Origin: Ornithinibacillus bavariensis | Lineage (GTDB): Bacteria > Bacillota > Bacilli > Bacillales > Amphibacillaceae | Direction of reading: 5' to 3' | Assembly (NCBI RefSeq): GCF_018333235.1 | Contig: NZ_BORP01000005.1 | Span: 1-64,000, forward strand | DNA length: 64,000 bases | In this document: in pieces, positions 9,251-10,473 of the stretch | Layout: each line of letters opens with the position of its first letter | How positions within the stretch are numbered: position 1 is the first letter of the stretch | Notes under the pieces: generated by a model | Databases searched by the model: none | Seen by the model: only the letters and a program-made list of their open reading frames with translations | What the model was told of the DNA's origin: nothing | Program-made: the position numbers and the translations under genes

Positions 9251-10060
9251 TTACTTTTTCTCAGATTGTTCTATCTCACGTTTGTGTGCCAAGTAAATTC
9301 TCTTGGAGATTAAGGTTTGAATAATAACGATAATACCTCCAACTGTCCAATATAACGGTAAAGCAGAGAAGGTGTTTAATGATATTACACCAATCATAAT
9401 TGGTGACATTAATCCGATTATAGCCATTTGTTTTTTCATTTTTGGATCAAGACCAATTTGTGATACCTTATATTGAATAAAATAGACAATCACCGCTATT
9501 GCTATCATCAACATATCTCTTTCTCCTAGATTGAACCAAAGAAAGGTATGTGTCGCTATTTCTGGAGTTTGCCGGATTGCATAATAAAATCCAATTAGAA
9601 ACGGAAACTGTATAAGTACCGGTAAACAACCACCAAATGATGCTAAAGGATTAAAATTATGCTTTTGATATAGTTGCATCATTTCTGCTTGCATCTTACG
9701 CTGAGACTCAGGATCTTTTTTATCCTTATATTTCTTCTGGATTTCGTCCATTTCTGGCTTAAGTTCTTTCATCTTATCTTGCATAATCAGATTATTCTTC
9801 GTTTGTTTAATCATAAATGGCATGACGACTAATCGAATAGCAATTGTGATTATGATGATGGATAAGCCATAATTATCATTAAAAAACTCTGCAATAAATT
9901 TAATAAGTGCGGAGAAATTATCAACGAATACTTCATGAAACCAGCCTGATGAATTAGCTGAATTACTACCTGAGCATCCTGCCAAAAAGACGGTTAATAA
10001 GATAAATACTCCGATGATATTTGTTTTCTTAAGGAAAGTGAATACAGATTTTTTTTGCAT
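9251..10060 (-). CDS. yidC: Membrane protein insertase YidC/OxaA (lipoprotein)
   Basis: 269 residues. It inserts proteins into the cytoplasmic membrane alone or with SecYEG. The lipobox LAGC places the acylated cysteine at residue 29. Five hydrophobic segments follow, with the family phrases IRLVVMPFMIKQTKNN and FNPLASFGGCLPVLIQFPFL. A charged KEL...KKYKDKKDPESQRK stretch forms the cytosolic hairpin. AAGGAGGATT sits seven bases before the ATG but is paired in a hairpin formed with the end of the mifM-like gene. By that context it is the inducible paralogue (YidC2/YqjG role) and not the constitutive SpoIIIJ, which normally sits with rnpA. Confidence 0.93.
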   Translation of the reverse strand: MQKKSVFTFLKKTNIIGVFILLTVFLAGCSGSNSANSSGWFHEVFVDNFSALIKFIAEFFNDNYGLSIIIITIAIRLVVMPFMIKQTKNNLIMQDKMKELKPEMDEIQKKYKDKKDPESQRKMQAEMMQLYQKHNFNPLASFGGCLPVLIQFPFLIGFYYAIRQTPEIATHTFLWFNLGERDMLMIAIAVIVYFIQYKVSQIGLDPKMKKQMAIIGLMSPIMIGVISLNTFSALPLYWTVGGIIVIIQTLISKRIYLAHKREIEQSEKK

Positions 10061-10383
10061 AGTAATCCTCCTTGTAATGTGAGTCGTAGTAGGTTTGTTG
10101 AGGATTTCGTTGCATCTTCTTCTTCATCTGGAAGTTCAATTCTTTTCGTGACTATAGCACGCCAGTTCCGCCTTGTTATAATTTCATTAGTAGCATTTTG
10201 ATTTATCTTTAATTGTACTTTACTTCGTTTTATGCCATGTATGTCTATAGGTGTATCACGATATAACTGATTTGCAACGACAGAAATGAATTGAAACGCA
10301 CATAGAACAGATAACAGCACACTCAAATAAAAATACATCGGTGAAAAATCACTAAAAAGCTCTATTAAAAAGTCCAAAATCAT
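9994..10383 (-). CDS. mifM: MifM-like regulatory arrest peptide controlling yidC
   Basis: 129 residues, starting at 10383 with GGAGG 10 bases upstream. One membrane helix lies at about residues 15-38, followed by a basic, hydrophilic tail. Trp74 and the acidic run DEEED (86-90) followed by Ala91 stand in the same spacing as the arrest motif I recall for B. subtilis MifM (Trp73 to Asp89-Ala90, 16 residues in both). In that system, poor membrane insertion leaves the nascent chain stalled and opens a hairpin that hides the yidC2 Shine-Dalgarno. Here the frame continues past the stall codons, through the yidC ribosome site and 67 bases into yidC. The residues after about 100 probably matter little. 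Confidence 0.8.
   Translation of the reverse strand: MILDFLIELFSDFSPMYFYLSVLLSVLCAFQFISVVANQLYRDTPIDIHGIKRSKVQLKINQNATNEIITRRNWRAIVTKRIELPDEEEDATKSSTNLLRLTLQGGLLCKKNLYSLSLRKQISSEYLSY
10051..10110 (-). promoter_or_regulatory. Hairpin sequestering the yidC Shine-Dalgarno
   Basis: On the minus strand AATCCTC lies nine bases after the codon for Asp90 of the MifM-like peptide. It pairs perfectly with GAGGATT, which contains the yidC Shine-Dalgarno. The loop is about 30 bases. A ribosome stopped at Asp90/Ala91 would cover the 5' arm and free the ribosome site. This is the arrangement known for mifM-yidC2 in B. subtilis. Confidence 0.75.
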
Positions 10384-10473
10384 CTGTATTCACCTCCAAT
10401 CTCTATCCTTTTCTACGTAACTAATCTTAATTCTGTTTCATCTTCTTTACAAAAGGAAATTTTTTCCTTTATA

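Follow-up and report, generated by a model that had tools for sequence, protein, structure and literature searches.

A MifM-type leader frame that overlaps yidC2 in Ornithinibacillus bavariensis, and its probable organisation as a two-lock translational switch

A small open reading frame located ahead of the second YidC/Oxa1 insertase gene of Ornithinibacillus bavariensis runs through the ribosome site and start codon of that gene, yidC2, which raises the question of what the frame encodes and why it extends into its neighbour. The locus was examined in the window, the whole 64,000-nt stretch of contig NZ_BORP01000005.1 analysed here (positions 1 to 64,000), and its features are listed in Table 1. 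An earlier note on this DNA had described a 129-residue frame with one membrane helix, Trp74 and a DEEED-Ala motif ending at residue 91, and had the frame running on through the yidC ribosome site and 67 nt into yidC. Both descriptions were correct, the overlap being of that length with the stop counted in, and the two genes are in different reading frames. The window probably carries a mifM-yidC2 operon of the Ornithinibacillus/Paucisalibacillus group that is organised as a two-lock translational switch, in which a hairpin (lock B) would close the yidC2 Shine-Dalgarno (SD) sequence and a longer helix (lock A) would close the ribosome site of mifM.

Table 1. Features of the mifM-yidC2 locus, with positions counted from the first letter of the window
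Feature	Position	Strand	Basis or remark
mifM-type leader ORF	9994..10383	minus	ATG, 129 codons; overlaps yidC2 by 67 nt
yidC2, second YidC/Oxa1 insertase, lipoprotein-like signal	9251..10060	minus	PF02096, 1.4e-43
Overlap, two reading frames	9994..10060	minus	mifM stop past lock A
Predicted transmembrane segment, mifM residues 18-36	10276..10332	minus	mean hydropathy 2.21
Predicted arrest region, residues 71-91: Trp74, K80-R81-I82, P85, DEEED (86-90), Ala91	10111..10173	minus	conservation
ECF-sigma-type promoter motif, TGAAAC (10440-10435), 17 nt, CGTA (10417-10414)	10414..10440	minus	ahead of mifM
Lock B 5' arm, anti-SD, codons 93-95	10100..10106	minus	7-bp perfect helix
Lock B 3' arm, most of yidC2 SD (GGAGG, 10071-10067)	10064..10070	minus	pairing probability with 5' arm 0.98
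Lock A 5' strand: mifM SD, spacer, first two start-codon bases	10382..10397	minus	MFE fold and covariation
Lock A 3' strand: yidC2 +12 to +27, codons 4-9	10034..10049	minus	complementary to mifM ribosome site; synonymous constraint

No NCBIfam model matched the mifM ORF, and its single Pfam match (RNA_pol_Rpb1_7, E 0.01) fell below the cut-off (16.3 of 23 bits). No Rfam family matched this region, and the PDB sequence search returned nothing better than E 0.36 for MifM. The gene is to this extent as uncharacterised-looking as had been claimed, but MifM is already known as a family, for which section 19 of PMC10987492 gives 572 non-redundant sequences from 592 genomes, and the window gene is not new as such.

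A search with the window MifM alone found relatives in 73 of the 159 genomes of the family, and a 30-member profile found mifM-type frames in 97 of the 159, representing 27 of 46 genera. Relatives were matched to genomes of Paucisalibacillus, Ornithinibacillus, Oceanobacillus, Virgibacillus, Lentibacillus and Gracilibacillus, and the profile also reached other yidC-linked frames of 94-98 codons elsewhere in the order (E 5e-5 to 4e-4). As 29 relatives share 24-47% identity with the window MifM and retain invariant residues, the window frame is taken to be coding. All 30 aligned sequences have Y19, W74, K80, R81 and P85 in common, the alignment columns of residues 82, 86 and 87 are at least 90% conserved in the same set, and the clade consensus around the Trp is NWITxKTKRI. 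Within the family, mifM was present in 96 of 102 genomes with at least two PF02096 copies, compared with 1 of the 57 that have a single copy, as counted from tables.

The locus was also compared with the classification of MifM in PMC10987492. The frame is a small ORF upstream of yidC on the same strand in a member of the Firmicutes, and its N-terminal localisation signal, a single hydrophobic segment preceded by acidic and followed by basic residues, has behind it a soluble part with 54 residues up to the last acidic one, where at least 30 are called for. Within residues 70-100 there is a strongly acidic five-residue window, D86-D90, in which all five residues are acidic. As for the MifM mechanism, a stem-loop involves the yidC2 SD, with its 5' arm just behind the predicted stall site, and the genome holds two PF02096 loci in total, the second on another contig (C6), as expected of a target yidC that exists in addition to a primary spoIIIJ. 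The distance from the end of the transmembrane segment to the last acidic residue, 54 in the window, has a median of 56 over 102 loci when measured by simple hydropathy, a method different from the predictors of PMC10987492 and one by which 51 of 102 relatives scored above 1.6 and many were modest; the median given for MifM in the relevant part of that paper is 54.

The published features of mifM-yidC2 (yqjG) of B. subtilis, as given in the cited passages, include a leader upstream of the second yidC, an N-terminal transmembrane segment, a Trp (73 there, 74 here), an acidic arrest cluster followed by Ala, a stem-loop on the yidC2 SD and a spacing of ~54 between transmembrane segment and arrest site (PMC10987492), and all of these are shared by the window locus. 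According to excerpts of the respective papers, MifM of B. subtilis is 95 codons long, arrests only a few codons ahead of its stop (PMC6037786), requires R69, I70, W73, I74, M80, N81 and DEED (PMC4423224), and has the arrest sequence RIxxWIxxxxxMNxxxxDEED (PMC7897499). The earlier note had given the same spacing and position for the B. subtilis motif (W73, D89-A90), in agreement with the excerpt of PMC4423224; Trp and acidic cluster are 13 residues apart in both proteins (W74 and E87-D90 here). It had also noted that N-terminal and linker residues differ. R69-I70, I74 and M80-N81 are not conserved, the window having T70-R71, R75 and R81-I82 instead, such that just the Trp and the acidic cluster are kept. 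None of the loci compared carried a B. subtilis-type arrest motif. A diverged insertion sensor had been suggested, but this is no isolated divergence, as the frame occurs in 97 of 159 family genomes. The central claim, a MifM-type arrest peptide and an SD-sequestering hairpin ahead of yidC2, found support in homology, synteny, spacing, conservation of the hairpin and co-occurrence with a second yidC. These data support assignment of the frame as MifM-type, and arrest and insertion sensing are predicted for it.

The hairpin on the yidC2 SD is a 7-bp perfect helix with a mean pair probability of 0.98 in the fold of a longer mRNA, and it was found as claimed, with its 5' arm right after the predicted stall and its 3' arm in the SD. 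The 91-nt stretch containing it has a minimum free energy (MFE) of -12.6 kcal/mol (z -2.58), a value reached by 2 of 200 shuffles. Taken alone, the pairing of the yidC2 SD in the window is unexceptional, the SD being unpaired at 0.19 versus 0.36 in synonymous shuffles (23rd percentile). Over the 103 overlapping-frame loci defined below, in which the hairpin is kept, the mean was 0.097 versus 0.287 when the preceding mifM codons were shuffled synonymously, and 55 of the 103 were at or under the 5% level. RNAalifold applied to the gapped alignment returned no structure, and folds of individual loci and a count of the named structure were used instead; in 66 sequences thinned at 80% identity, 86.6% of lock B cells were paired. 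The distance of the anti-SD arm from the acidic cluster is nearly fixed, with the median and both quartiles at 7.33 codons (5-95% range 6.33-10; n=102), as expected if a ribosome stalled at the acidic cluster must cover this arm. In the window the arm presumably falls within the footprint of a ribosome stalled at codons 90-91.

The extent of the overlap was examined in 132 loci. Three of them (L085, L110 and L115) lack a recognisable yidC2 start, leaving 103 phase-2 and 9 phase-1 overlapping loci and 17 with a short mifM frame. L110 and L115 have a mifM frame, but the DNA behind it showed no recognisable start of a sufficiently long yidC2 frame; a broken or misassembled yidC2 is one possibility in these two genomes. 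The family accounts for 97 mifM loci, 95 of them with a recognisable yidC2 start, and in 95 of 95, the count made without selection for overlap, the mifM frame passes that start. Moreover, the acidic cluster lies 62, 65, 68, 71, 74 or 80 nt from the yidC2 start, always in the same phase, in 93 of the 95. Outside the family, 17 of 34 loci with a yidC2 start overlap and 17 stop 16-31 nt before yidC2, in mixed phases. The run-on into yidC2, which had been presented as a difference from B. subtilis, is thus present, but it is a phase-locked feature of the clade, tied to a second RNA pairing, and not a quirk of one species.

No stop interrupts the mifM frame up to yidC2 codon 14 in 100 of 103 phase-2 loci, where 68.9 were expected from synonymous shuffles of yidC2. 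The frame is open to yidC2 +27 in 103 of 103 (34 and 41 for the other frames), a count to which only the last 27 nt contribute, as this set is open to the yidC2 start by definition. A at yidC2 codon 2 was found in 0 of 103 phase-2 loci, 6 of 9 phase-1 loci and 14 of 17 short-frame loci, and in 17 of 37 SD-preceded ORFs of the window. This avoidance is no more than suggestive, since A is also rare at codon 2 of spoIIIJ, a gene without a mifM (1 of 30; a start was placed in 30 of 31 control loci). Codon 2 of the spoIIIJ genes (L001, L167-L196) begins with C in 26 of 30.

The first codons of yidC2 are under strong synonymous constraint. The ratio of synonymous conservation was 2.56 in the first six codons, 1.27 in the next six and 0.92-1.13 in later blocks, versus 1.28 in the first six codons of the spoIIIJ control. 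One later spoIIIJ block, codons ~31-36 (consensus ESEGIW), has a raised ratio of 1.44. At one pair of yidC2 positions, Val is encoded by GTA in 73 of 75 cases and Phe by TTC in 79 of 80, against background use of 0.24 for GTA and 0.33 for TTC. The constraint is accounted for by the complementarity of this stretch to the mifM SD together with its spacer and start codon.

This constraint was at first attributed to the peptide encoded in the mifM tail, where L-Y-S is found in 71 of 102 loci and arises from seven different nonamers, as would be expected of a functional motif such as a second pause or tail signal. That reading was dropped, the same bases being complementary to the mifM ribosome site, and it is now considered very improbable. 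The bases covary with the mifM leader, and L-Y-S is missing from the mifM tail in two phase-shifted loci in which the RNA complement is kept with changed bases (16 nt in L079, 12 nt in L070). In all, four phase-shifted loci (L070, L079, L140 and L144) keep the pairing with changed leader bases. A further candidate, pairing of the yidC2 stretch of lock A with the arrest codons, was unsupported, with 8 of 66 loci ranking among the top 5% (mean 0.305 against 0.260).

In the window, lock A comprises 16 bp (duplex -22.7 kcal/mol) and belongs to the MFE structure predicted for the 459-nt mRNA, in which each leader base is paired at a probability of 0.93-1.0. Over 102 loci, L146 being left out for want of a mifM start, native duplexes averaged -23.1 kcal/mol, versus -18.4 with swapped partners and -9.0 with an unrelated yidC2 stretch. 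The native duplex was better than its own swapped mean in 92 of 102 loci and was the best 30-nt partner within the locus in 99, and the lock A energy was at or under the 5% level of yidC2 synonymous shuffles in 84. With the register fixed (99 loci; L150, L153 and L166 had no SD match), the 12-bp core was 93.5% paired, whereas permuted partners reached at most 86.9% in 200 permutations. Both locks together, in the 66 thinned sequences, had 88.8% of cells paired versus 84.3% when shuffled (0 of 500 as high) and 46.7-53.7% when slid; for the two lock A helices the values were 91.5% and 80.0%.

Compensatory change was seen within lock A. In the fixed register, 70 of 120 leader changes were compensated, 10 were one-sided and still paired, and 40 break the pair. 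On a tree built from the part of YidC2 that the overlap does not encode, both sides of lock A change on 19 branches, 13 of which stay paired. In registers slid by 1-3 nt, 3-8 branches change both sides and 1-3 stay paired, and in those slid by 30, 33 and 36 nt the corresponding numbers are 7 and 2, 16 and 9, and 12 and 4, at slides where the element changes about six times as often. Against the two-lock reading stand the 40 leader changes that break a pair, and the 45 branches that change the leader alone and 40 that change the element alone. Sequence analysis establishes both predicted pairings and their conservation.

An entirely different sequence forms lock A in five loci of another family (L091, L092 and L101-L103), with about -17.6 to -23.0 kcal/mol at the mifM SD, although in L101 another site scores better than this SD. 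None of the five has an apparent ATG, GTG or TTG at a normal distance after the strong SD, and AUC may serve as the first codon of their mifM frame. Six loci came from a distant family whose genomes are large, and in three of them (L244, L245 and L246) the best upstream partner of the yidC start region (-19.2 to -21.5 kcal/mol) is a stretch of different sequence that has an SD-like site where mifM probably starts, possibly representing an independent lock A.

That the overlap and the second complementarity are by-products without a regulatory role, added to ordinary MifM control of the B. subtilis kind, is quite unlikely. The known parts that can be read from sequence are indeed present, and the whole 438-nt mRNA is no more stable than its shuffles (z 0.08), a result that counts against the two-lock reading. 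However, the locking of phase in 93 of 95 loci, the codon choice at yidC2 codons 4-9 and the compensatory changes would all be unexpected of by-products.

The complementary stretches flank mifM as an inverted repeat, and they could in principle act as DNA, either around an invertible segment or as a protein-binding site. This is the least credible of the alternatives, and DNA inversion was rejected because G-U pairs, which make sense in RNA alone, are common in lock A (65 of 99 loci at offset 1). In addition, one arm lies on the SD and start codon, and yidC2 starts behind mifM on the same strand in 95 of 97 family frames, the other two having no recognised start.

A further alternative is that the long helix is a signal for processing or decay, for example an RNase III site near the 5' end, or that it mainly blocks initiation of yidC2 and not of mifM. 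A helix of 16 bp may be long enough for an RNase III-type site, and the yidC2 strand occupies positions +12 to +27 in 92 of 102 loci, presumably partly within the footprint of the initiating ribosome. Nevertheless, the mifM SD, spacer and start codon form the centre of the pairing, which is what masking of a ribosome site would predict, and the pairing reaches the first two G of the mifM GGAGG in 89 and 87 of 99 loci, partly as G-U; this alternative is accordingly judged unlikely. The third and fourth SD bases are paired in just 69 and 54 of 99, which is again a point against the two-lock reading.

A link between overlap and lock A was apparent across the locus classes. Lock A of -15 kcal/mol or better was found in 102 of 103 phase-2 and 9 of 9 phase-1 overlapping loci (111 of 112) but in only 4 of 17 short-frame loci, with class means of -24.0, -23.3 and -11.2; this count used the best of several SD-like sites instead of assigned mifM starts. 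With assigned starts the same threshold was reached in 100 of 102, 4 of 9 and 1 of 17 loci, respectively, the mifM start probably being misassigned in L153 (-8.3) and in five loci of one genus. The SD region was a better partner of the yidC start than 14 windows inside mifM in 103 of 103 phase-2, 8 of 9 phase-1 and, weakly, 11 of 17 short-frame loci, the last count being a point against the two-lock reading. The four short-frame loci comprise three at -15.6 and L082, in which a strong lock A (-26.5 in this count, -28.0 in another) accompanies a mifM frame that stops 16 nt before yidC2, arguing against the overlap being indispensable. A large clade has inherited overlap and lock A jointly, and its loci therefore do not represent independent events; the counts overstate independence. 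In 102 of 102 loci mifM terminates beyond the yidC2 strand of lock A, at a distance of 1-79 nt (median 22).

Comparison of the loci shows a conserved set of predicted parts, namely a MifM-type frame, the lock B hairpin, a lock A of 12-16 bp and a frame that runs past lock A, and from these we infer arrest, switching and a role for the overlap. It is an even call whether they form a bistable, ribosome-operated double lock, in which each start site is opened by ribosomes on the other gene and the out-of-frame overlap is the path along which the lock of the sensor is unzipped. At rest both ribosome sites would be closed. As the mifM site is transcribed ~330 nt ahead of its partner, new messages would be expected to load mifM ribosomes first. 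With enough YidC, MifM would be inserted and arrest released, and the released ribosome would cross the yidC2 start and lock A before terminating, after which the locks could re-form and the message return to the state with both closed; lock A would reopen whenever another ribosome crosses. With too little YidC, a stall at about codons 90-91 would cover the 5' arm of lock B and free the yidC2 SD, and ribosomes initiating on yidC2 would then cover the yidC2 strand of lock A, keeping mifM loadable and sustaining the ON state. On this model the purpose of the overlap is to carry a released mifM ribosome across the yidC2 strand of lock A, a passage needed to reopen the mifM start, and an earlier mifM stop would let the message silence its own sensor.

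Relative to published MifM, in the parts of the literature cited here, the conserved overlap through the yidC2 SD and start and the helix on the mifM ribosome site are additional. The cited passages on B. subtilis, which is represented here by publications, call its stem-loop intergenic, whereas here the mifM frame extends into yidC2, and codons 4-9 of that gene pair with the mifM ribosome site. The word 'overlap' is absent from the main text of PMC10987492 and PMC7897499, and a literature search covering titles and the openings of abstracts, with most subscription journals outside it, found no report of a mifM-yidC2 overlap or of a helix on the mifM ribosome site. CliM-yidC2 of Clostridia shares a YidC-monitoring arrest peptide, an N-terminal transmembrane segment and a stem-loop over the yidC2 initiation site, but has a different arrest motif, and no second lock is described in the cited part of PMC13183943. 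SecM-secA and VemP-secDF2 likewise have a monitoring substrate whose arrest controls a downstream localisation gene, and an SD stem-loop is described for secA; they differ in monitoring Sec and not YidC and in their arrest sequences, and the cited parts of PMC10987492 and PMC7897499 describe no lock on the leader's own ribosome site.

A start site closed by a distant coding sequence and opened by crossing ribosomes is familiar from the coat and replicase genes of phage MS2. There, an upstream coding stretch closes a downstream start, whereas here the yidC2 start region would close the upstream mifM start.

Transcription of the operon was considered through the motif upstream of mifM, which we take to be ECF-type by its likeness to a sigma-W-like consensus. 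The motif (TGAAAC, 16 or 17 nt, CGTA) was found upstream of mifM in 33 of 128 loci, with a background of 0.0016 per 110 nt, and may point to transcription of the sensor operon under envelope stress; sites resembling those of sigma-A, at 3 mismatches or fewer, are commoner (96 of 128).

In the cited parts of PMC10987492, PMC7897499 and PMC13183943, leaders that act as monitoring substrates are described as one-lock systems, in which the ribosome site of the target gene alone is masked. In the loci described here the leader's own ribosome site also appears to be masked by the target gene, an arrangement that more than 100 species conserve with compensatory changes, and that gives the conserved gene overlap a plausible purpose. 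If this is correct, the locus would be an arrest-peptide switch in which the 5' coding sequence of the target gates translation of the leader, and a handful of synonymous changes would be enough to test what the out-of-frame overlap is for. It would also offer a compact design for translational switches, and would add feedback, and possibly memory or bistability, to insertase homeostasis.
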